In this document: piece after piece, positions 1 through 47,767 of the stretch | Position numbering within the stretch: the stretch's first letter is position 1 | How the letters are laid out: every line of letters begins with the position of its first letter | Virus record (IMG/VR): IMGVR_UViG_3300025131_000073 | Location: 1 to 47,767 of that record | Origin: a virus | DNA: 47,767 nt | Direction: 5' to 3' (one strand) | Program-made: the position numbers and the translations under genes | The notes under the pieces: model-generated | What the model was told of the DNA's origin: nothing | Database searches by the model: none | Seen by the model: only the letters and a program-made list of their open reading frames with translations

Positions 1-189
1 AAGCAGTTCATCAGTGACCATATCGCCCCGGGGAAGGCCCTCCGTGAGGGAGATGCCCAGGTTGCAGCAGCCTCTGGTTTCTCAGCCGCAAGGAGTGTCC
101 TGTCCCGAAGGCACACGCGAGCTGTGGACAGTGGCCTCCAGGCCCTGGAGGAGATTGAGAAGTCTGTAGATGGACCGAAGGCTGAGGTG
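1..189. repeat. Terminal overlap, left copy (circular closure)
   Basis: These 189 bases recur at the right edge of the window (47579-47767). I find one difference, T at 63 against C at 47641, which is a silent third-position change in a valine codon. The same reading frame runs through both copies. This is what a circular or circularly permuted genome gives when it is assembled as a linear contig. A short physical terminal repeat is the alternative, but the copy lies inside a gene, which makes that less likely. Confidence 0.9.
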
Positions 190-3031: not shown

Positions 3032-3354
3032 AGTCCCTGGTCATCATCGAGTCCCCCTACGCTGGTGAGATCGAACGCAACACCCTGTATGCCTGCCGCG
3101 CCATGCTGGACTCTCTCGACACAGGAGAGGCCCCCATCGCCAGCCATCTCCTGTACACCCAGATGCTTGACGACAACATCCCTGAACACCGCGCGCTCGG
3201 CATCGCCTGCGGCCTTGCATGGCGCAGGGTCACTGACTACGCTGTGTTCTACATGGACTACGGGATGTCCAGCGGAATGCTTGAGGCCAAGGAGCTGTAT
3301 GACAAAGAGGGACGCGGCTACGTCGAGCGCTTCATAGGAGAGAACCCCACCTGA
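3028..3354 (+). CDS. DUF7768-like protein (nucleoside 2-deoxyribosyltransferase-like fold)
   Basis: 108 residues. The pattern IIESPYAG, then ERNTLYACRAMLDSL, APIASHLLYTQ, LDDNIPEHRALGI and DYGMSSGM is typical of a small phage-borne family annotated DUF7768/DUF4406, which is related in fold to nucleoside 2-deoxyribosyltransferases. Members may act on nucleosides or nucleotides, but their reaction is not established. ATG 3028 is preferred because it overlaps the upstream stop (ATGA); longer forms from TTG 2974 or ATG 3004 are possible. Its stop overlaps the polymerase start (TGATG). It is the third insert in the polymerase locus. Confidence 0.7.
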   Translation: MKSLVIIESPYAGEIERNTLYACRAMLDSLDTGEAPIASHLLYTQMLDDNIPEHRALGIACGLAWRRVTDYAVFYMDYGMSSGMLEAKELYDKEGRGYVERFIGENPT

Positions 3355-4934
3355 TGGCCCGCATTATAGACTCAGCCAACCTCAAGCAGAAACTCAACGG
3401 CCAGATCGAAGGCTTTGCCGCGGAGCAACAGCTCTGGATATACAACGGCATGGACTGCACAGTAACCCGTGAGGTCCTGGACTCCCTACAGCCCCAACTC
3501 GACCACGAAACCGCTAAGACCTATGAGTTCGAGCGCCTGATGTGCATCCCCGCTATGGCTATGATGCGCCGGGGAGTGCTCACCAGCAGTGCATACAGGT
3601 CTGAGCTCGTAGGGTACTTCCAAAAGCGAATGGCCAAGGTCCAGAATGTCCTGGACACAATGGCCAGGGCTGTCTGGGACAAGGGGCTGAACTACAACTC
3701 CTCGAAGCAACTCCAGGAGTTCTTCTATGACACGATGATGCTCCCACCTATATATGTTTCCGAGAAGGGCGTCCGTCGCAGGTCCTGTAACCGTGAGGCC
3801 CTGGAGCAGCTGGAGATCTACCTGTACGCCCGGCCATTCATCCGGGCTATCCTTTCTCTCCGTGAGATGAAGAAGAAGCTCCAGGTCCTCCTTGCAGGCA
3901 TCGACGAGGACAAGCGTCTCCGTACCTCCTTCAACGTGGGCGCAACGGAAACCGGGCGCTGGTCCTCCAGCCATAACGCCTTCGGCACCGGGGACTCTCT
4001 CCACCAGGTCACCGAGGTCATCCGCCGGCTGTTCATCGCAGACCCTGGACACATCCTCGTCAGCGTTGACCTCAAGGGCGCCGAGTCTTGGGGTATGGCG
4101 GGCCTCTCCGGAGACAGGAAGTACCTGGCAGCCTGTGAGTCTGGCGATGTCCACACCGCTGCGGCCAAGATGATGTGGCCTGAGCTCCCATGGACCGGGG
4201 ACCTTCGTCTGGACCGTGAGCTCTCTGAGGAGATCTACTACCGCCACTTTTCCCGCAGAGACATGACCAAACGTGGGGGCCATGCCACCAACTACATTGG
4301 CTCTGCATGGGGCATTGCCAAGAAGCTCCAGATCGAGCAGCAGGTGGTCGCCGAGTTCCAGCGGGCATATCTCAAACTCTTTCACGGTATCGACGAGTAC
4401 CACACAAAGACCTCCGAGGAGCTCGTTCTGGGAGAAGACTTCGGAGGTAATCGCGGGGCGCCCCGCCAGCTTCGCACTCCCATGGGCCGACGCAGGACCT
4501 TCTTCGGCCGTCCCTGGGACGACGCCACCGTGCGCGAGGCAGTTGCGTACCGCCCGCAGTCGCTGATTTCCGATGTACTCAAACTCGGAATGCTGTGGGT
4601 GTACCAGGAACTGGAGCCAACCTTCCAGCTACTTCAAGAAGGCCACGACTCAATCCTGGGCCAGGTTCCAGAGGCTCGGGTTGAGGAACTGGTAGAACGC
4701 GCGCTCCTCCTCATGACCATCCCCATCAAATTCCGCTCAGGCATGGAGTTCGCAATACCTCTTGAGGCTTCCGTAGGCTACAACTGGTCCAAGGCGGACC
4801 CAAAGCGCAAGCGTTTCAAAGACGGCAACCCGGGTGGACTGGTAGATTGGGAGGACTACAAGAGTGGAAAAGCTACGCCCAAACGAGAGAGTGCTTCCCT
4901 CTTGGATCAAAGGCTTTCTGGCATACTGCAATGA
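3354..4934 (+). CDS. Family A DNA polymerase, polymerase half of a split enzyme
   Basis: 526 residues. Motif A is DLKGAES with D239, motif B is the region RRDMTKRGGHATNYIG (about residues 300-316), and motif C is HDSI with H431 and D432. These are the catalytic elements of a PolA-type replicative phage polymerase. The N-terminus carries LWIYNGMDCTVTREV: Y30-x3-D34 fits Exo III of the proofreading domain, although Exo I and II are encoded separately at 1450-2535. About 27 residues before it look like new N-terminal sequence. The 3' end overlaps the primase/helicase gene by 71 bases. It is probably the main replication polymerase, working with the detached exonuclease subunit. Confidence 0.9.
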   Translation: MARIIDSANLKQKLNGQIEGFAAEQQLWIYNGMDCTVTREVLDSLQPQLDHETAKTYEFERLMCIPAMAMMRRGVLTSSAYRSELVGYFQKRMAKVQNVLDTMARAVWDKGLNYNSSKQLQEFFYDTMMLPPIYVSEKGVRRRSCNREALEQLEIYLYARPFIRAILSLREMKKKLQVLLAGIDEDKRLRTSFNVGATETGRWSSSHNAFGTGDSLHQVTEVIRRLFIADPGHILVSVDLKGAESWGMAGLSGDRKYLAACESGDVHTAAAKMMWPELPWTGDLRLDRELSEEIYYRHFSRRDMTKRGGHATNYIGSAWGIAKKLQIEQQVVAEFQRAYLKLFHGIDEYHTKTSEELVLGEDFGGNRGAPRQLRTPMGRRRTFFGRPWDDATVREAVAYRPQSLISDVLKLGMLWVYQELEPTFQLLQEGHDSILGQVPEARVEELVERALLLMTIPIKFRSGMEFAIPLEASVGYNWSKADPKRKRFKDGNPGGLVDWEDYKSGKATPKRESASLLDQRLSGILQ

Positions 4935-6150
4935 GACTGTTGCCCCGATACATTACCTGGAGTGGTCTGCGGCCCACGCTATTGCGGCTGCTCTGCAGAG
5001 GAAAGCCTGGGTCACCTACAACGGCGAAAGACTCTACTCCAACCTCTTCATCCTACTTGTGGGACCCCCACGGATTGGTAAGTCCACAGCAATCAAGCGC
5101 GTCAGGCGCCCGATGGAAAAGGTCAAAGACATCAAGATCGCAGCAGACTCAGTCACCAAGGAGCAACTCTACGTAGCCATGGAGAAAGTCTCTAATTCCC
5201 TGGCGCATGTAGATCTCCCAAGCATTCCAGGGCTGTACAACCATGCCTCCTACAACATCACCAATACAGAGTTTGGGGTGATGCTCTCCAAGGAGGACAA
5301 GCAGTTTATGCTTGCCCTCTGCAAGATGTATGATTGCGAGGACACCTTCCGCCACGAGATAAAGACTGGGGACAGCTCCCATATCGAGAATGTGTTTCTG
5401 AATATGATCGGCGCGGCCACCCTGGTAGGCCTCCGTGATATTCTTCCAGAGGCCGCCTTCCAGACCGGCTTTGCCGCGCGCCTCAACCTTGTCTATGCCT
5501 CCGAAAAACGCGGAGCCCACAAGCCCACCCTGGGTGAGGACCCAGAGGAGAAGATGACCGAGGACTCCGGGGATGCCGAGCTCTCCAAGGCCCTGCGGCG
5601 GGACCTCAATAGTGTGCACAAGCTGTCCGGGCCTTTCGCTTTCGCCCCTGAAGCCCGCGCGGCATTCTTCAGCTGGCTTGAGAGCGGGATGCATCCGAAG
5701 GTCACGCATATGCAGTTCGCCTCCTACAACGATGCCAGGGATATCCACCTGCTCAAGCTGGCCATGGTGCATTCCGCTGCAGTCAGCAATGACATGATTA
5801 TCACCATGCAGAACTTCCTCGACGCCAAGGACATGCTGGAGCGTAACGAAGCACTCATGCCGCAGGCTATCACCTACGTTGGAGCCAACGAGCAGCAGGC
5901 CTACATCGAGGAGGCCCTGAGGTTCATCGCCACCGAGTATGTCCGCAGAGGGATGAAGCCAGTCCCTGCATACCTGGTGCGCCAGCAGATCTCCCCCAGG
6001 ATACCTGTCCAGTTTATCCGCTATGTGATGAACGAGATCGGCTATCAGGGCCTTGCGGAAATCATAGGCGAACCACCACACCACGCGTTCAAGCCTAAGT
6101 CTGCGCTGGTACTTGAGGCTGAACACAAAGAGACAGGGGGAGGGCAATGA
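4864..6150 (+). CDS. DUF3987-type primase/helicase P-loop protein
   Basis: 428 residues from a GTG start. The Walker A motif GPPRIGKS is at residues 67-74, preceded by SWIKGFLAYC and a segment EWSAAHAIAAALQRKAWV. This matches phage DUF3987-family helicases or helicase-primase partners that sit beside PolA-type polymerases. The GTG start lies inside the polymerase gene, but conserved family sequence begins within about 10 residues of it, so a later start would truncate the domain. The C-terminal third (ARG- and helix-rich) may be a DNA-binding region. The stop overlaps the zinc-ribbon start (ATGA). Likely replication-fork helicase or loader; no separate primase was recognised. Confidence 0.7.
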   Translation: MEKLRPNERVLPSWIKGFLAYCNETVAPIHYLEWSAAHAIAAALQRKAWVTYNGERLYSNLFILLVGPPRIGKSTAIKRVRRPMEKVKDIKIAADSVTKEQLYVAMEKVSNSLAHVDLPSIPGLYNHASYNITNTEFGVMLSKEDKQFMLALCKMYDCEDTFRHEIKTGDSSHIENVFLNMIGAATLVGLRDILPEAAFQTGFAARLNLVYASEKRGAHKPTLGEDPEEKMTEDSGDAELSKALRRDLNSVHKLSGPFAFAPEARAAFFSWLESGMHPKVTHMQFASYNDARDIHLLKLAMVHSAAVSNDMIITMQNFLDAKDMLERNEALMPQAITYVGANEQQAYIEEALRFIATEYVRRGMKPVPAYLVRQQISPRIPVQFIRYVMNEIGYQGLAEIIGEPPHHAFKPKSALVLEAEHKETGGGQ

Positions 6151-15840: not shown

Positions 15841-17399
15841 CAGAAATCATCCCCTCCAGCGACACCCAGGACCTCGAACCCACCCAGACGAAAGGCATCA
15901 TCAGTGGCTGTGCATGTCAACTTCACGGTCAAGAATGCTGTCTCCCTCTGGGAGTTGGTGAACTCAAACCCATCCGCAAGCGCCGCAGCGGTGTCCCAAT
16001 CAATCGAGTCGTCTATGTCCTCCTGGTAACCCAGGGTAATGTTGCAGCCTGCCCCTGCTAGGTCCCTGATCCGCGTTCTGACCACATCCACGAACTTGTG
16101 AACATCAGGGTCCCCGAGGTCCAGCGGCTTGGTCTGGACACTTTTCGCTAGCGCAGACCCGGCAGCGTTGTCCGTGCGCCCTTGTGCAAAGAGCCCACCA
16201 GTGGCTGTACCCCCAGTGGGGTAGTCTAGCACAGAGCGCTCTGTCGCCGCGCTCCGGCCGTAGTCCCCGATTGTCCAGCTGTTGTTGAGATATCCATAGG
16301 CCAGGCTTTCGCTATTGTCTGTATCGGACCCCTTGGGGTAATACCAGACAATGCGGCTTTGCGCCTCATCGTGCCAGCCCCAAATCTTGGTCTGTTGCGC
16401 TGTGTTGAGGTTGTCGGTGATGTAGGAACGGAGCGCAGGGTCGCTTATGTAGTCAAAAGCCTCACTCCCATCACTCGCCCAGATACCCAGAGGTCCCCAG
16501 CCATAGTGCCGCCCGTTGGCCTCCACTACCGAGTGTTTCGACAGCGCGCCAATCCCTGTAGCCGCGCGCTTGTGCCCGAACATGAACGGCGCCTGGACAA
16601 AACTCAACCTGAACGAGGCATTCGCTCCGTACATCATGATAGCATCGCCAAGCATCACCGCCGCGACCATGGCCCCCGGGAGCTCGCGCACAATCGCCTG
16701 TCCTGCTGTTGGATACTGCACAGGGTCCCAGTTCTCTGGCTGACCCGCAGCGCACCAGGAGTACCCGCGGTCGGAGTCCGAGGTGTTAAACAGTAGGAGG
16801 AACTGACCCAGGCGCAGCACGATCTCAGCGGTGTCCACCAGCACCCCCGCGAGGGCAGCAAAGGCAGTGGTCTCGTCCTCCTTGTAGACCTGCACAGCAT
16901 CAATCCCGTTGGCGGCGAAGGTCCAGTCCCCCCAGGACTCCATGCTCCAGAGTGTAGCCGGCGTGGTTTCCAATTGGTCAGTGAAGCCCTGGTAGAGGCC
17001 GCCCAGGCTAGCTACGGCTCCGCCTGTGGTTCGCTGGAGACTTGTCGCCGTGCCGATGTAAACCGCAAGGCCGCCGGTGGACAGGCGCTGTTGTAGTAGG
17101 CCGTTGATGGGAACAGCAAGAGAATTAGAATAGGTAGTCCCTGGACCACCATCATCGAAGTCCCCAGGTGCATCATCGAAATCTCCCGTTGCGTCGTCGA
17201 ACAACAGAGGGAACCCGTCCGGGGTGTTCCAGCCTTTGTCGGTTAGCACCGCTCCGTCATGGAACACAACATTGGAGCCAGTTTTCCACAGCGGTACACT
17301 GAACTCATGCACAGAGGGAAACACCCCGGAGTCCAGGGGAATTTGCACAGTGTCCTGGATCGACGCGCGCTTGGGATATGCAGCGAGCCGGTCAGCCAT
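15840..17399 (-). CDS. Tail nozzle-like protein (P22 gp10-type)
   Basis: 519 residues. The body is a series of beta segments with conserved-looking turns (FHDGAVLTDKGW, LYQGFTDQLETTP, SWGDWTFAANGIDAVQVY, SDRGYSWCAAGQPENWD, GWGPLGIWASDG, ARSRIVWYYPK-like), as in P22 gp10-related tail nozzles that form a beta-propeller and close the tail. It follows the adaptor gene, as expected for a short tail. ATG 17399 is preferred; the longer frame would need TTG 17441, and the ATG start overlaps the adaptor stop by 8 bases. Confidence 0.65.
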   Translation of the reverse strand: MADRLAAYPKRASIQDTVQIPLDSGVFPSVHEFSVPLWKTGSNVVFHDGAVLTDKGWNTPDGFPLLFDDATGDFDDAPGDFDDGGPGTTYSNSLAVPINGLLQQRLSTGGLAVYIGTATSLQRTTGGAVASLGGLYQGFTDQLETTPATLWSMESWGDWTFAANGIDAVQVYKEDETTAFAALAGVLVDTAEIVLRLGQFLLLFNTSDSDRGYSWCAAGQPENWDPVQYPTAGQAIVRELPGAMVAAVMLGDAIMMYGANASFRLSFVQAPFMFGHKRAATGIGALSKHSVVEANGRHYGWGPLGIWASDGSEAFDYISDPALRSYITDNLNTAQQTKIWGWHDEAQSRIVWYYPKGSDTDNSESLAYGYLNNSWTIGDYGRSAATERSVLDYPTGGTATGGLFAQGRTDNAAGSALAKSVQTKPLDLGDPDVHKFVDVVRTRIRDLAGAGCNITLGYQEDIDDSIDWDTAAALADGFEFTNSQRETAFLTVKLTCTATDDAFRLGGFEVLGVAGGDDF

Positions 17400-18060
17400 C
17401 AGAGGGGTACCGCATCTGGAGGTTGCCTCCGCCGAACTCAAGCGAGGTCTCAGCGATGTCCATGGTGTCGTAGATTTCCTGGCGAATAGCCTGCCAGCGC
17501 TTCATTCCCTCAGTATCCCGAAGGCGCGCGGAAATATTATACATGACCTGGGCCTCCACGAGGTCATCCCCGTTGGTGAACCACCAGCTGGTCGCGGTCC
17601 CGGTCCCGGTGCCGAAGTTGGAGAACTCGAAGAACCCGGCCTCGGCAACTTCTGTGCTGGCTGTTTGGGCATTCAAGACCAGGTCCACGTCCCGATCCAG
17701 CCAGAACGCGGTAGGGACCCCGGTAGTCGCGGTGCTGTAGGTGGTAGTCCGCGCGGACAGGTCCTGAGGCTTGATCTGATCCAGGTAGATGAATTCACTA
17801 TTGGAGTCCACAATCCGCAGGAAGTCCACCCGCTTGACCAGCTTATCCGTAGCGCTGAGGATATCCGCGAGCACCAACCGCCGGGTCGCAGTGGTCATCG
17901 AGATCGAGCTCGCGAAGAAAAACATGTTGTGGAAGTTGTTGTTCCGCTCCAGCTGGCGCACAGCTTGCTTGATCCGGATGAGCAATACATCATCCAGCGC
18001 TGTACCCCGGCCCAGGGTGGCCGAGATATTGGTCAGGACCTCGCCAAGGTCAGCCGCCAT
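17392..18060 (-). CDS. Head-tail adaptor protein (SU10/P22 gp4-like)
   Basis: 222 residues. An N-terminal helical half (IKQAVRQLERNNNFHNMFFF), a beta-rich middle (RLVLADILSATDKLVKRVDF, SEFIYLDQIKP) and a C-terminal helical end with RDTEGMKRWQAIRQEIYD are features of adaptors that extend the portal. It lies between the Maf-like gene and the nozzle, in the usual order portal-capsid-adaptor-nozzle. ATG 18060 overlaps the upstream stop by 11 bases. Confidence 0.65.
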   Translation of the reverse strand: MAADLGEVLTNISATLGRGTALDDVLLIRIKQAVRQLERNNNFHNMFFFASSISMTTATRRLVLADILSATDKLVKRVDFLRIVDSNSEFIYLDQIKPQDLSARTTTYSTATTGVPTAFWLDRDVDLVLNAQTASTEVAEAGFFEFSNFGTGTGTATSWWFTNGDDLVEAQVMYNISARLRDTEGMKRWQAIRQEIYDTMDIAETSLEFGGGNLQMRYPSDG

Positions 18061-18898
18061 CCTCCGCTTCCTTCTCGCCCTCGGTTATAGTCTGGGCTTC
18101 CTTCTCGATCGAGTCCTCGATAAACTCAATCCCAGCAGTTGTGGCTTGGGAGTCCGCGAAGGCTTCCACGCGCCACGCGCCAGAGTCCAGTATCCCAAGC
18201 GTCGGCTGGCAGGGGCCGTAGCCGTAGAACAGGTCGTCCTTGCCGGTGAGCCTGGGCATGGTGTCCATCAGGAAGCTCCGAGGCGCCACCGAGATAGTGT
18301 GCCCCATCACCTTGCCCATGCCGATCCAGTACTCCACGTTGCAGCGTCCGTGTTCGTAAGGGTTCTCCCGCCCGGGTATTTTGTAGTTGTAGTCACACCC
18401 GAACAGGTCGATCTTGCCCGGCTCGCCCGCGAGGTCGAAACAGAGATACGCATAGGCAATCGCGTAGGCAACCGAGTTGACCAAGTAGGAGGACTTGTAC
18501 GCCTGGATGACTTCATGCAGCGGGTACTCCATCGTGCAGGACAGGTCCTCGATCGCTCTGCAAGTCACCACAGGAATGTCATGATGCTTGTAGATGTCTA
18601 GGTAGCGTCGGTGAGGCTCCCAGGTCCAGTCGTGGATGTTGAACGAGCGGTGATGGCGATAGCAGAATGCAGCGGCGTTGACTGTCCAGACTTCGCTTCC
18701 CTCAGCGTAGAAGCGGTGATGTTGGTCGTACCCAGCGGTGATCCAATCCAGGCCGGAAGTTCCCATGCCTAGAATGGTAACGTGGTTCAGCGGAATAGGC
18801 TGTTGGACTCGCTCTTCGCCAAGTCCAGACAGCCGAACGGGTAGGGCCGGAGGAGGGGCCGAAGCCCCTCCCTCAACCTTCCGTGCGTCTTCGCCCAC
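18050..18898 (-). CDS. Maf/DUF115-like protein, possible glycosyltransferase
   Basis: 282 residues. A nucleotide-binding-type start (NHVTILGMGTSGLDWI) at about residue 38 is followed by VNAAAFCYRHHRSFNIHDW, NSVAYAIAYAYLCFDLAG, KIDLFGCDYNY and CNVEYWIGMGKVMGHTISV. This layout resembles motility-accessory-factor (Maf)/MptE-like proteins, some of which transfer pseudaminic acid onto flagellin; related phage proteins in capsid-tail blocks have no proven role. The GTG start follows the decoration-gene stop directly. A C(UUCG)G hairpin lies in its first codons. The 3' end overlaps the adaptor gene. Confidence 0.55.
   Translation of the reverse strand: MGEDARKVEGGASAPPPALPVRLSGLGEERVQQPIPLNHVTILGMGTSGLDWITAGYDQHHRFYAEGSEVWTVNAAAFCYRHHRSFNIHDWTWEPHRRYLDIYKHHDIPVVTCRAIEDLSCTMEYPLHEVIQAYKSSYLVNSVAYAIAYAYLCFDLAGEPGKIDLFGCDYNYKIPGRENPYEHGRCNVEYWIGMGKVMGHTISVAPRSFLMDTMPRLTGKDDLFYGYGPCQPTLGILDSGAWRVEAFADSQATTAGIEFIEDSIEKEAQTITEGEKEAEDGG
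18852..18871 (-). terminator. C(UUCG)G hairpin just after the capsid/decoration genes
   Basis: On the minus-strand message this is a perfect 8-bp stem, GGAGGGGC paired with GCCCCTCC, closed by a UUCG tetraloop. It lies 28 bases after the decoration-gene stop and inside the first codons of the Maf-like gene. There is no U-tract. It could lower expression of downstream genes relative to the capsid genes or protect the capsid message from 3' decay. Confidence 0.5.
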
Positions 18899-32377: not shown

Positions 32378-32818
32378 CTAACGCGCCCTCCAATGCCAAA
32401 CGAGAGGGCCATTGCTAGGGCCAGCGAGTGCCTCGGCCGGGCCCTTGACAAGATACGGGCCAACCCCTGCAGAGAGATTGTGGCAAACTTCAACAAGAAC
32501 AAGACGATCAGCAGGCCACATGCAGCCAACAAGCCGAGCGTATCTCGCAAGCTGATGAAAAGCGTCCTCGGTGTGGGAGAGCTTGGCCTCCAGGAGCAAA
32601 GTGCCTTCGGGCAGGCGAAGGAGGCCATCCGGAATGGCATAGCGCGTGCGGCCAGCCTCTTCATACTCCAGGCATGGTTGGGCAAGGAGCGAGCGCCCCG
32701 GGTAGCAGCGCTCAAGCTCCTTGAGGACCTTTCGCTCATAGGTCCTGCCCCGGGCCGCTGAGCCCCGGAGCCCCACCCTCTGCAGGCGGGAGAGCCACTC
32801 CGGGGGACTCTTGCACAA
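32378..32818 (-). CDS. PD-(D/E)XK nuclease-like protein
   Basis: 146 residues from TTG 32818. The fold signature is ARGRTYERKVLKEL (helix), then IPDGLL (motif PD) and TLLLEAK (E-x-K), followed by HQLARYARLV. These are the catalytic elements of PD-(D/E)XK endonucleases. It overlaps the small terminase by 83 bases, which suggests coupling to packaging or DNA processing. GAGGG lies five bases before TTG 32818; longer starts at ATG 32842 or 32884 are possible. The substrate (junctions, ends, host DNA) is unknown. Confidence 0.6.
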   Translation of the reverse strand: MCKSPPEWLSRLQRVGLRGSAARGRTYERKVLKELERCYPGRSLLAQPCLEYEEAGRTRYAIPDGLLRLPEGTLLLEAKLSHTEDAFHQLARYARLVGCMWPADRLVLVEVCHNLSAGVGPYLVKGPAEALAGPSNGPLVWHWRAR

Positions 32819-33476
32819 CCGTACCCTCGATGGTTTGGGCATTGGCTTGCTTCGCCGCTTGCTTGATCGCCGTGAGTTCGTCATCAGTGAGCCCCCCAGA
32901 GTTGCTGGACTCAGAGCGCTGGACTGCTGGGTGTCCTGTGCGGTCAAGGAGGTCCCCCACGATTTTGTGCACCTGAGCCAGCGGAGTGTCCGGGTCCTCG
33001 ACAGCCGCATGGAGTCTCCCGAGGCCCTCATAGGCTGCCAGCTTCATGCGCGCAGCGGGGTCGGCCACTGTGGCTGCATCCCGGCGCTCTTGGTAATAGG
33101 CCACCAGCTGGCGCATCCCCTGGGCCTTCTTCAGTGTGGAGATGGTGGAGGCACTCATCTTGAGAACCTGCGCGATGTGGACGTTCTTGTAGCCAAGCAC
33201 CAACATCCGCGCGATCTCGTGGTGTTTCTCGCGGACAGCGGGGATGTCGTAGGAGCTAGGCTTGGCGTCCTGGCGGGCGACCTCGAGCTCAATCAGATCG
33301 TCCTCGGTGAGCTCTCTGACTGAGTGGATGTTGAGGGCGGGCACGGGAAGCGCCCCGGTATAGCTGTCCGCATTGCGGACGACTATATCCACCCCGCGCG
33401 CCGGCTTACCCTCCAGGAGCTCCGCCACCCTGGTCTCTAGCCCGTCCAGGTCGTCTATCACAGGCACCTCAGCCAT
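32736..33476 (-). CDS. terS: Terminase small subunit
   Basis: 246 residues. A helix-turn-helix (YKNVHIAQVLKMSASTISTLKK) with helical flanks (RQLVAYYQERRDAATVADPAARMKL) and TPLAQVHKIVGDLLDRTGHP match phage TerS proteins, which bind the packaging start and load the large subunit. ATG 33476 is chosen; GTG 33575 would add 33 residues. The 31-bp dyad copy 2 lies in its early codons (33358-33388). It heads the late minus-strand block. Confidence 0.65.
   Translation of the reverse strand: MAEVPVIDDLDGLETRVAELLEGKPARGVDIVVRNADSYTGALPVPALNIHSVRELTEDDLIELEVARQDAKPSSYDIPAVREKHHEIARMLVLGYKNVHIAQVLKMSASTISTLKKAQGMRQLVAYYQERRDAATVADPAARMKLAAYEGLGRLHAAVEDPDTPLAQVHKIVGDLLDRTGHPAVQRSESSNSGGLTDDELTAIKQAAKQANAQTIEGTVVQESPGVALPPAEGGAPGLSGPGQDL
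33358..33388. promoter_or_regulatory. 31-bp interrupted dyad, copy 2 (inside terS)
   Basis: The pattern GTATA-N4-TCCGC-N3-GCGGA-N4-TATAT differs from copy 1 by one base in the outer arm. It lies about 90-120 bases after the terS start codon, inside the reading frame. A repressor or activator bound here could control read-through of the late block. Confidence 0.7.
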
Positions 33477-33913
33477 AGCTTCAATCCCTGGCTGTCCGCG
33501 CAGCTCTCCTGCCAGCTCCCGCCCACTGTACCCAGCCGCGCGCGAGTTGTCAAGCCTTGGTGCGCCCAGGCGCACGCTGCCGGGGCGGCCCCGCTATACA
33601 GTTTGGGTCTATATCCTGTCCTGTGCGAGCAATTTGAACGGTGGACCCTGTGAATGGTAAGTACCATTCACAGGGGGGCGCCCCGCATGCTAAGGCAGCA
33701 TGGCTGCCATGCGCCGGGTGCATGGCTCTTGGCATGGCCCTTGCCGGGCAAGAATCGTGCCAGTTCAAGAACCGTGCCATAGGTCATGCGCCACGCGCAT
33801 GGCTGGGTTGCATACATATCATAGGTCATGGCATTGAACTTCAACCTTGGCATCCCCATATCAAGTATACGGTTGGCGGTTGTCGCCACCCGGGCCAAGC
33901 AAGGAGACCTACA
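33477..33913. promoter_or_regulatory. Divergent control region, repeat-dense
   Basis: There is no gene in these 437 bases between minus-strand terS and the plus-strand gene at 33914. It holds a 30-bp palindrome (33646-33675), GCATGGC at 33698, 33720, 33732 and 33797, CATAGGTCATG at 33778 and 33820 (42 bases apart, four helical turns), and CGTGCCA twice around 33756-33779. A possible plus-strand promoter is TTGAAC near 33834 with CATATC 17 bases later. This density of short repeats is that of a switch region for early and late transcription. Confidence 0.55.
33646..33675. promoter_or_regulatory. 30-bp perfect palindrome, operator candidate
   Basis: Two 14-base arms, CCCTGTGAATGGTA and its exact complement TACCATTCACAGGG, flank a 2-base centre AG. 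It lies in the divergent gap, where a dimeric repressor could control both directions. As RNA it would form a long hairpin, but there is no adjacent U-tract or gene end, so a DNA operator is favoured. Confidence 0.7.
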
Positions 33914-34513
33914 TTGGCACAACGGAAAGCGGAAGCGTTCGACGACGCAACCTATGCGGAAGCGTTGGCGGACAACGTGGAATTCGACCTTGCGGCGCAA
34001 GGCTTGATTTCCGTCACCATGCCGCGCGAGACTACCTTCACCGTGTATCCCAAGACGGCGTCACTTCGCAAGGTTTACACGCTTGACCTTGGCGACTTGT
34101 TCGCGGACCTGGGCGACGGCGTCGGGGACTTCGTGGCGCACTTGGTCATGCATGGCGCGCAGATCAAGTGCCAAAGGTCCAACGCGGCCGACTCGACCGA
34201 TACGCAAAGGCCGCACGATACGGCCTTGGCGATTTGCGCGGGGGACATCGGCGGCGCGGGCGAGTCCGGTCCCACGTGGATCACGGAACTCCGCAAGGGC
34301 GTCGTCGCGGCCCTTCGCAAGAACGGCGAAACGGCCAAGGCCGCAAGCGCAGCGGCCAAGGTCATCAAGTCGCGGGAAGACCTTTTCGCGACCTACAACG
34401 AAACGTCGGCCACCCGGCTTGCGAACGATGCCGACGAGTCTATGCAACGGTATGCCGACCTTGGCGGATTGGACATGTCGGCCCCGCCGACCGAGACGCC
34501 GCCGACCGAGTAA
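33914..34513 (+). CDS. Unknown acidic protein at the head of the plus-strand block
   Basis: 199 residues from TTG 33914, with AAGGAGAC at 33901-33908 deciding the start. The first half has beta-type stretches (FDLAAQGLISVTMP, FTVYPKTASLRKVYTLDL); the second half is helical and Ala/Lys-rich (ALRKNGETAKAASAAAKVIK) with a Pro/Thr/Glu tail. No family was recognised. It lies between the switch region and the origin candidate and ends in a strong hairpin, so it is probably made early and in quantity; a DNA-binding role would fit but is not shown. Confidence 0.65.
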   Translation: MAQRKAEAFDDATYAEALADNVEFDLAAQGLISVTMPRETTFTVYPKTASLRKVYTLDLGDLFADLGDGVGDFVAHLVMHGAQIKCQRSNAADSTDTQRPHDTALAICAGDIGGAGESGPTWITELRKGVVAALRKNGETAKAASAAAKVIKSREDLFATYNETSATRLANDADESMQRYADLGGLDMSAPPTETPPTE

Positions 34514-34628: not shown

Positions 34629-34672
34629 GTCAGGCCCTTAATGGCAGCGTGGTGGTCTAGCTTGCCCCCACC

Positions 34673-34933
34673 AGCAAACCTTCAGCAAACCTTCAGCAAA
34701 CTCAAGTGAACTGCAGCATTATCCCAAACAGCGCATCGCGGCCATCCCGCCCAAGGCAAAGGTGAGCTATACAGGCCAAGGAGCTCAGTCTAATATTTTT
34801 TTTTTTTTATATACACTCAAGGACAGGACCCCCAGGCTGGGGGATATAGCTGACCGGGACCACCCGGCAAGATGCCCACCATGCACTGTTTGGCAACTTG
34901 GGGAAGTTCACTTGAGTTTGCTGGCAGTTTGCT
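34673..34933. other. Candidate replication origin: symmetric iterons around an AT-rich core
   Basis: There is no gene here. On the left AGCAAAC occurs at 34673, 34684 and 34695 (11-base steps); on the right the inverted GTTTGCT occurs at 34916 and 34927 (again 11). A 19-base arm CAGCAAACTCAAGTGAACT (34694-34712) is exactly complemented at 34905-34923. Inside it, a 13-base arm (34724-34736) is complemented at 34881-34893 with one mismatch. The gap between outer and inner arm is 11 bases on both sides. The axis falls at about 34808, next to a run of 13 T (34796-34808) followed by ATATA. Iterons flanking an AT-rich core are typical of origins. Confidence 0.6.
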
Positions 34934-34978
34934 GGTACTTGGGGTCATTGGCTTTGCCCCAGCGCTACACCAAACCTG

Positions 34979-35007
34979 TTGACCGCGCGCGCCGGGTGTG
35001 GTATCGT
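34979..35007 (+). promoter_or_regulatory. Sigma70-like promoter upstream of the accessory block
   Basis: TTGACC (34979-34984), a 17-base spacer and TATCGT (35002-35007). The spacer ends in GTGTGG, as in the promoter at 41947-41976. The first gene starts at 35084 with AAGGAGAC at 35072. It lies just right of the origin candidate. Confidence 0.6.
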
Positions 35008-35083
35008 GTTGGGGTTAGGGCAATTGCGCCCACAGGCCACCGGGCGGCCGTTCCAACCTACCCCGCCCAACAAGGAGACTACC

Positions 35084-35353
35084 ATGCAAACCAACCAGGT
35101 TACCAAGGACCAACTCACCCGTTGGGTCGCAGCACTCATCACCACAGTCGATGATTGCGGCTCGGCACCCGCCGGCGTCCTGTACGCCGGGTTCCAGACC
35201 GATGGGATGCCCCATGATAACTTCACCCACATCCTGGGTGTGTTGGTCCAGGGTGGGATCATCAAGGTCCAGTCCAACATCGTCACCCTCACCGCCGAAG
35301 GTCGGGTGAAGGCCAACGAGTTGAACGCCGCCATCGCCAAGGCAAAAGGATAA
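35084..35353 (+). CDS. Small protein, possible winged-helix fold
   Basis: 89 residues. The segment GVLYAGFQTDGMPHDNFTH followed by ILGVLVQGGIIKVQSNIVTL, TAEGRV has the look of a compact helix-helix-wing fold found in many short phage proteins of unknown role. The start ATG is fixed by AAGGAGAC at 35072-35079. First gene behind the promoter at 34979, so it may be an early host-takeover or regulatory protein. Confidence 0.6.
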   Translation: MQTNQVTKDQLTRWVAALITTVDDCGSAPAGVLYAGFQTDGMPHDNFTHILGVLVQGGIIKVQSNIVTLTAEGRVKANELNAAIAKAKG

Positions 35354-42683: not shown

Positions 42684-43205
42684 ATGAGCCCTCTCCATCC
42701 CACCCTCCCCCTCATGCGCAGAGCCTTACGCTCAGACGCGCGCACACTCATTCGCTGGGCCAATGACCCAGAGGTTATTTCAATTTCCCTGAACCGTACA
42801 GGCCGCATTGCCTGGGCCGATCATGTCAGATGGTTGGAAGCCCGCCTGGAGGACCCAGACACCATGATCTGGATCGCCGAGGGTCGCCGAGCAGGTCCCA
42901 ACGCCACACCGGACACTCCGGAAAATATTCCCATAGGCTATGCGCGGGCGCAAAGAGGTCCAGAGGGCTTAGAGATCAGCATCTACCTCATCCCTGCCGA
43001 GCGCCAGCGCGGGCACGGCGCCCAGATGTTGAACTTCGCCAGCGCCGAGCTGTCCAGCCGCTGGCCCAGCGAGCCCATCATCGCTCGCATCCTGCATGAG
43101 AACCACGCCTCGCGTCAGTTGTTCCTCCAGGCAGGCTTCCGCCTTGTTGCCACTCTTGGCGACCACCTCCTGTACCGTCACGACCCTGTACATGTCCCCG
43201 ATTGA
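42684..43205 (+). CDS. GNAT acetyltransferase, PseH-like
   Basis: 173 residues. The start MRRALRSDARTLIRWANDPEV, split here after residue 11 by ARTL, is typical of acetyltransferases of nucleotide-sugar pathways (PseH or PseG-fused types). ISIYLIPAERQRGHGAQML carries the acetyl-CoA loop (R/Q-x-x-G-x-G/A), and ILHENHASRQLFLQAGF follows. PseH acetylates the 4-amino sugar after PseB and PseC have acted, so it would fit with the PseB-like gene at 30347, 11 kb away. Another sugar or protein substrate is possible. ATG 42684; GGAG seven bases upstream. Confidence 0.6.
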   Translation: MSPLHPTLPLMRRALRSDARTLIRWANDPEVISISLNRTGRIAWADHVRWLEARLEDPDTMIWIAEGRRAGPNATPDTPENIPIGYARAQRGPEGLEISIYLIPAERQRGHGAQMLNFASAELSSRWPSEPIIARILHENHASRQLFLQAGFRLVATLGDHLLYRHDPVHVPD

Positions 43206-47188: not shown

Positions 47189-47767
47189 ATGGATACCATC
47201 TCTCCCAAGGACGTTATAGTCTCAAATCGCCAGCGCAAGGAGCTCGGCGATCTTTCTTCTCTGCGCGAGTCTATCCGCGCGCATGGGATACTTAATCCTA
47301 TCATTGTACGAGTGCTCGACGAAGAGACTCACCTTGTCGCCGGCGAGCGCAGACTCCAGTGCGCTTTGGAGTTAGGTATAGACCCAATTCCTGTGCGATT
47401 TTTTAGCTCGCTAAACTCCACTGAGACCAAGATCGTTGAGCTTGACGAAAACATCCAGCGCAAGAACCTCACCTGGCAAGAGGAGTGCCTCGCTGTCCTG
47501 GAACTCCATGACCTCTATTCCGAGCTCGGCGGCGAAGACTGGACCCAGGAGCAAACTGCCGAGCGCTCCGGATACTCCAAGCAGTTCATCAGTGACCATA
47601 TCGCCCCGGGGAAGGCCCTCCGTGAGGGAGATGCCCAGGTCGCAGCAGCCTCTGGTTTCTCAGCCGCAAGGAGTGTCCTGTCCCGAAGGCACACGCGAGC
47701 TGTGGACAGTGGCCTCCAGGCCCTGGAGGAGATTGAGAAGTCTGTAGATGGACCGAAGGCTGAGGTG
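47189..47767 (+). CDS. ParB/Srx-DNA methyltransferase fusion, N-terminal part (gene spans the join)
   Basis: 193 residues before the window ends; it continues at base 1 in the same frame. Residues about 1-100 are a ParB/sulfiredoxin-type domain: SLRESIRAHGILNPIIV, LVAGERRLQCALELG (the GERR box) and NIQRKNLTWQEE, then a helix-turn-helix-like part (QEQTAERSGYSKQFISDH). The methyltransferase domain follows in the other piece. ATG 47189 has GGAGG four bases upstream. In such fusions the ParB-like part probably gives DNA binding; partition activity is not expected without ParA, and none is present. Confidence 0.85.
   Translation, partial: MDTISPKDVIVSNRQRKELGDLSSLRESIRAHGILNPIIVRVLDEETHLVAGERRLQCALELGIDPIPVRFFSSLNSTETKIVELDENIQRKNLTWQEECLAVLELHDLYSELGGEDWTQEQTAERSGYSKQFISDHIAPGKALREGDAQVAAASGFSAARSVLSRRHTRAVDSGLQALEEIEKSVDGPKAEV
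47579..47767. repeat. Terminal overlap, right copy
   Basis: This is the copy of bases 1-189, with the single difference C at 47641. See the left copy. A genome length of 47,578 bp follows if one copy is removed. Confidence 0.9.

Follow-up and report, generated by a model that had tools for sequence, protein, structure and literature searches.

A dyad-symmetric, A/T-centred element at the modular divergence of Kuura-like phage genomes is a candidate replication origin

In archaeal replication origins, ORBs of opposite polarity flank an AT-rich DUE, and this arrangement is believed to allow symmetric loading of two helicases (PMC6742236). The origins oriS and oriL of HSV carry inverted recognition boxes around an AT-rich spacer, and a palindrome or hairpin is possible there (PMC12543377). 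In phage lambda, iterons lie beside an AT-rich tract inside the O gene (PMC7466680). Mapped phage origins are few beyond the model phages, and those compared here consist of iterons beside an AT region or of short tandem iterons. We analysed a stretch of viral DNA of 47,767 nucleotides (IMG/VR record IMGVR_UViG_3300025131_000073, hereafter the window), in which an earlier note had proposed that a two-sided, repeat-rich region is a candidate replication origin.

The window represents a complete, circularly assembling genome of ~47,578 bp, because its ends (window 1-189 and 47579-47767) overlap over 189 bp with 1 mismatch and a nearly identical contig, G001, bridges the junction. This contig starts at window 34755 and, with its last 1.5 kb mapping to 16675-18150, spans the joined ends. 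The nearest named relative by portal and terminase is Caulobacter phage Kuura (portal 46% identical), and by these sequence markers the genome is Kuura-like and podovirus-type. Its structural genes occupy the minus strand (7.4-33.6 kb) and its replication genes the plus strand, from 35.1 kb via the junction to 7.2 kb. The element is located at the only divergence in the genome, between the structural (-) and replication (+) modules, where the earlier note had also placed it.

On the right, a promoter scan identified a sigma70-type early promoter (TTGACC-17-TATCGT, with TG before the -10; 34979-35007, + strand) reading into the replication module about 45 bp from the outermost iteron. By eye, a TTGAC-type -35 was present at the matching place in G002, G004, G007, G008, G010, G017, Kuura and Mel-JY34. 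The same scan found no leftward promoter from the element; its minus-strand hit lies at 33553, >1 kb away. The first gene to the right (35084-35353, +), of which an identical copy is present in L005, encodes an 89-aa predicted winged-helix DNA-binding protein and candidate arm binder. Its single-sequence model (pLDDT 83.8) is a winged helix with AspA, SSV1 F-93 and MarR-type proteins as nearest structures (E about 3e-3). This adjoining early gene is not conserved across the family, unlike the architecture of the element. Leftward, the nearest conserved gene (32736-33575, -) is a homologue of the putative small terminase of Kuura. A 14-bp perfect inverted repeat with a 2-nt loop (CCCTGTGAATGGTA; 33646-33675) is found 1.1 kb to the left of the element, where an ORF without Pfam or PHROGs match (33641-34513) starts. 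The replication module also contains a GNAT acetyltransferase (42684-43205), possibly a host-modifying or counter-defence protein.

Re-reading the sequence from 34665 to 34940 showed the iterons, arm pairs, 11-base spacings, axis and T13 of the earlier note to be base-exact. On the left, three AGCAAAC iterons begin at 34673, 34684 and 34695 on the plus strand (array 34673-34701) in 11-bp steps. Two copies on the minus strand, at 34916-34922 and 34927-34933 (array 34916-34933), are again separated by an 11-bp step and are inverted relative to the left set. Arms of 19 bp (CAGCAAACTCAAGTGAACT on the left, 34694-34712; right copy 34905-34923) pair perfectly, and inner arms of 13 bp (34724-34736 and 34881-34893) pair with 1 mismatch, the gap between the 19-bp and 13-bp arms being 11 bp left and right alike. 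Both pairs have their axis at 34808.5. The last base of a T13 run (34796-34808) falls on this axis, and T13 followed by ATATA forms an A/T core (34791-34813) that is a candidate unwinding element. The symmetry is longer than had been described: a full left arm of 69 nt (34683-34751) pairs without gaps with a full right arm (34866-34934) at 77% complementarity, with 114 nt between them, and an innermost inverted pair (GGTGAGCTATA) lies at 34761-34771 and 34845-34855. The region is intergenic, and stop codons recur along it in five of the six frames. The element forms a single extended dyad, roughly 150-280 bp in size, and occupies one place in the genome. Its layout includes two features of an iteron-type origin, namely non-coding direct repeats at helical spacing (11 bp in the window, lags of 10 and 20 across the family) and an adjacent AT-rich region that could unwind. 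In the core of G001 (L005 1-400, aligned with window 34755-35155) we noted T14 in place of T13 and a difference of one further A, for which slippage or assembly error are both possible.

We compared the symmetry with that of shuffled sequence. Scored about a fixed centre, the symmetry reached 38.5, against 9.8 +/- 1.55 (maximum 19.5) in 5000 dinucleotide shuffles, and the phased pattern of three plus two inverted heptamers occurred in 0 of the 5000. The element is the most dyad-symmetric site of the whole 47.8-kb window, and only in its core does the window contain a 24-mer in which 22 or more bases are A/T. A genome-wide search for AGCAAAC, which the earlier note had suggested, gave 8 copies against 5.1 expected, so that the heptamer as such is not rare and what is unusual is its clustering and phasing. 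The 19-bp arm was found elsewhere only in G001, which is essentially the same phage and was also the only close relative retrieved through the flanking genes; a blastn search of phages with the region gave no match. In IMG/VR, a search with the AGCAAAC x3 pattern returned 74 stretches, none with the two-sided design. Among other virus contigs, L051, L039 and L043 carry long AGCAAAC arrays in 11-bp steps, with >40 copies over about 600 bp in L051.

To examine the element in relatives, we gathered genomes by searching IMG/VR with a portal profile, a TerL profile having given mostly distant matches. Members were judged if they reached far enough upstream of the terminase, and contigs G013 and G015, which end near the divergence, were left out of this judgement. 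We parsed 27 elements: that of the window, those of four isolates (Kuura, Mel-JY34, VS-ABTNL-3 and a Desulfofustis phage) and those of 22 metagenomic contigs. The layout recurs in these genomes where the modules diverge, as inverted arms around a core that is usually A/T-rich, often with repeats phased at 10-12 bp in the arms on both sides, and the letters of arms and iterons are completely different among the relatives. The conservation of the arms in relatives, which the earlier note had named as a check, therefore held for symmetry and failed for sequence. Since the elements were picked partly for their symmetry, a symmetry score alone would be circular here, and the independent evidence lies in coincidence with the A/T core, position and phasing. 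The strongest dyad site usually coincided with the A/T tract, at the equivalent place in members.

In 23 of the 27 elements the core includes a homopolymer of A or T that is 7-19 bases long. It is T in G002 (T17), G004 (T9), G009 (T10), G012 (T18), L194 (T12), L196 (T19), L200 (T10), L201 (T13), L211 (T17) and L230 (T15), and A, with orientation unchanged, in G007 (A13), G008 (A10), L241, L081 and L083. In the isolates the cores are T12 (Kuura), T9 (Mel-JY34), A8 (VS-ABTNL-3) and A17 (Desulfofustis phage), and Kuura is less symmetric, with a score of 16 and an empirical fraction of 0.023. Cores without a homopolymer were (TA)n in G010 and TATATATTTTTT in G017, and the palindromes of G005 and G006 lack a long run. 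The L248/G006 element (oriented 2537-2680) is a nearly perfect palindrome of 144 bp (85%) with a central hairpin in place of the A/T homopolymer, and more TCATTGAGT-type repeats lie outside it. In G011 and G014 the element seems to be absent. The two-sided design was not shown by EBPR podovirus 3, Roseobacter CRP-810 or LUZ24, and PaMx41 has a local inverted repeat only.

Repeats facing each other across the core were found with many different sequences: CAAAAC-type on the left at about 11 bp and GTTTTG-type on the right in L196, ACTGCCC four times on the right with 1 inverted copy on the left in Kuura, CCTCCTA against TAGGAGG in L230, AAAAGCCCTC against GGGCTTAT in L200, and repeats of ACGTACCCACC against 1 inverted copy in G009. 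In pooled flanks, repeat lags were raised at 10 (z 6.5) and 20 (z 6.2), and a codon period of three was absent. These lags would be expected of proteins binding one face of the helix. The best lag was identical left and right within many elements, an agreement that is not independent, because the arms are mutually symmetric. A lag of 8 was also raised (z 4.8), best in G009 and L199, for which helical phasing gives no account. Together, the shuffles and the conservation exclude a chance palindrome, and the element is real, a family-wide cis element and very probably a working control site.

The sister phages G007 and G008 allowed us to follow the arms against an almost constant gene background. 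Between these contigs the small terminase is 90% identical, the UvrD-type helicase 87%, the Cas4-like nuclease 96%, the UDG-exonuclease 97% and a methyltransferase 93%; the comparison covered the replication enzymes available for both, with DUF3987 left out. The core AAAAAAATAAyACTATATA and the promoter are kept. The arms are unrelated, with scores of 8.5 left to left, 11.5 right to right and 8.0 and 7.5 crosswise against a null of about 9, and they pair with their own partners at 22.0 and 23.5. Both arms have thus been replaced in concert between genomes whose genes are up to 97% identical, and it is the symmetry itself that is maintained. Reading of the arm sequence by any of the conserved enzymes compared is disfavoured, because these are 87-97% identical despite a complete change of arms. 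Likewise, the arms are unlikely to be recognition sites of the small terminase, 90% identical in this pair, with which they do not co-vary as a pac site would. G007 and G008 share only 43% identity in the gene that comes first on the right of the element; its co-variation with the arms is suggestive only, because other early genes diverge about equally.

We also considered which replication proteins could act at the element. The family encodes its own PolA, a UvrD-type helicase, a Cas4-like nuclease, a Sak4-like ATPase and a DUF3987 protein. In the window, the 1447-2535 product combines a uracil-DNA glycosylase domain at its N-terminus with a PolA-type 3'-5' exonuclease in one fusion protein, and a separate ORF (3354-4934) encodes the PolA-type polymerase domain; both proteins have matches across the family. 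DUF3987 domains are predicted helicases that replace MCM or DnaB in mobile elements (PMC5862659). The family-conserved DUF3987 gene of the window (4864-6150, +) encodes an AAA+ protein with a predicted C-terminal winged helix, a candidate helicase or initiator. The protein has a P-loop ATPase, and its model (pLDDT 61.7; the middle, residues 93-234, is unreliable and not modelled) contains a winged-helix-like C-terminus, with weak ORC/MCM fold matches. A sequence search of this protein against solved structures was uninformative. For a Pseudomonas PaMx41 protein labelled as a primase, the annotation includes an HHpred note that points to an archaeal Orc2. Pfam matches of the replication-module proteins scanned included no Orc1/Cdc6, the proteins searched against Pfam and PHROGs included no RepA_N protein, and by eye no DnaA box was recognised at the element. 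The distant DUF3987 protein and the neighbouring winged-helix product of 35084-35353 are candidates for an initiator that would bind the iterons.

Nucleotide skew, which the earlier note had also offered as a check, did reach extremes near the element. In the window, the cumulative keto-skew maximum lies 0.5 kb and the GC maximum 1.7 kb away, and in Kuura the cumulative GC maximum is 73 bp from the element. Extremes were also close in VS-ABTNL-3 and Mel-JY34, and less close in the Desulfofustis phage. However, skew cannot part replication from transcription, because coding direction switches at the element too; the pattern is expected of an origin but equally of a coding-strand switch, and we dropped skew as proof of an origin.

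We give an even chance to the reading that the element is a bilateral, bidirectional replication origin. The earlier proposal has fared well as regards an origin-like cis element, which the family-wide architecture supports; the role as an origin, including replication firing, bidirectionality and the identity of the binder, is what we infer. The site is non-coding and intergenic and heads the replication module, which favours an origin. Weighing against it are the mapped terminal-repeat edge of Kuura, which falls inside the element, and the two contigs that seem to be without one. Under the origin reading, proteins bound to the helically phased repeats of both inverted arms would face each other over the A/T core, the core would melt, and one fork would be established in each direction. 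Forks would run co-directionally with the modules, leftward through the structural and rightward through the replication genes, and would encounter one another close to the convergent junction, around 7.3 kb. The DUF3987 AAA+/winged-helix protein may serve as helicase or initiator, and the arm binders may be fast-evolving early proteins, here the winged-helix product next to the element. More tentatively, the wider proposal is possible that a podovirus-type family of ~44-50 kb uses a two-sided dyad origin in which symmetry and not sequence is conserved, together with a DUF3987 (MCM/ORC-like) helicase.

A rather unlikely alternative is that the element serves the genome terminus or packaging, either as a palindrome used in cutting concatemers and making direct terminal repeats or as a docking site for terminase. 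In T7, nicking and hairpin-primed synthesis have been proposed for concatemer processing, and hairpin formation would explain why symmetry is maintained and why pairing is kept without sequence. Kuura has a direct terminal repeat of 606 bp, mapped by PhageTerm (PMC9959647), whose inner edge falls in the interval separating the left iteron from the T12 core, 57 bp away from the latter; G001 starts 41 bp left of T13; and the two contigs left out above, G013 and G015, stop close to the divergence. The window record, for its part, assembles as a circle. The small-terminase homologue as first conserved gene to the left fits such a role, but the G007 and G008 arms share nothing despite their similar small terminases. 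The proximity of the Kuura edge is partly expected, because the edge falls in the one ~1-kb non-coding divergence, and LUZ24 likewise has its terminal repeats at the divergence without such an element. Moreover, a hairpin needs neither phased direct repeats nor an A/T core, and the arms of the window are only 77% paired across their 114-nt gap. A role in the terminus or packaging, which the earlier note had not considered, is thus a live rival to the origin reading, and concatemer processing and origin roles may also be combined in one site.

An operator between the divergent modules is also unlikely in our judgement. Here a regulator, such as the winged helix of 35084-35353, would bind the phased repeats on both sides, and the resulting DNA loop would toggle transcription between early (+) and late (-), with the A-tract as a bend or UP-element. 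The position between divergent modules, the sigma70-type promoter near the outermost iteron and the MarR/AspA-type fold predicted for the adjoining gene are all consistent with this. However, an operator of this kind is at odds with the lack of a leftward promoter from the element in the scan, with an adjoining early gene that is not conserved in the family as the architecture is, and with the A/T tract on the dyad axis, which of all features varies least and for which an operator array has no need. A transcription terminator or a chance palindrome, including a hairpin-telomere site, is very improbable. The earlier note had offered a terminator for the core, where T13 follows a weak GAGCT/AGCTC pair. 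This did not hold, as the scan found no terminator at the core, where the run lies in the dyad loop with no GC-rich hairpin right before it, and the run is A in several relatives of unchanged orientation. Chance is countered by the shuffles and the conservation, and a hairpin telomere by the direct terminal repeats at the ends of Kuura.

If the origin reading is right, the strongest dyad together with the most A/T-rich site at the modular divergence would be a signature of the likely origin in uncultured phages. It also raises the question of whether symmetry is kept by a fast-evolving arm binder or by a DNA mechanism that copies arm onto arm. Kuura, which is cultured and has mapped termini, provides a testable system.

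Among known systems, the terminal-repeat edge near a palindrome in Kuura recalls the T7 concatemer junction, but the arms of these phages change while the small terminase stays. RepA_N iterons, such as those of PLE from Vibrio cholerae, have inverted sub-repeats that converge on poly-A (PMC7145576); in that system every short iteron forms such a unit and is repeated in tandem, whereas the phage element is one large dyad. Lambda shares iterons and an AT-rich tract in a phage, but its origin lies within the initiator gene with iterons beside the AT region, and the arrays described here are bilateral, inverted and non-coding. The likeness to HSV oriS and oriL lies in inverted boxes, an AT-rich spacer and a possible palindrome or hairpin; HSV, however, is a eukaryotic virus whose OBP initiator is an SF2 helicase, and the phage arms are longer and fully variable between relatives. 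As in archaeal oriC, an AT-rich core lies between opposite-polarity, initiator-type repeats whose sequence and number vary among relatives (PMC6742236), so that in layout the phage element matches opposite-polarity elements flanking a DUE. The DUF3987 protein, with its P-loop ATPase, predicted C-terminal winged helix and weak ORC/MCM matches, adds to this likeness. Differences are a PolA-type polymerase, no Orc1/Cdc6 by sequence among the replication-module proteins scanned, the DUF3987 gene being non-adjacent at about 17.6 kb with its weak fold match, and repeats mostly in 10-12-bp steps. On our best reading of these comparisons, the plan of the putative origin resembles archaeal or HSV origins rather than that of lambda. 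If so, an archaeal- or herpes-style solution would exist inside bacteriophages, in which phased arrays turn over jointly while the A/T core stays.
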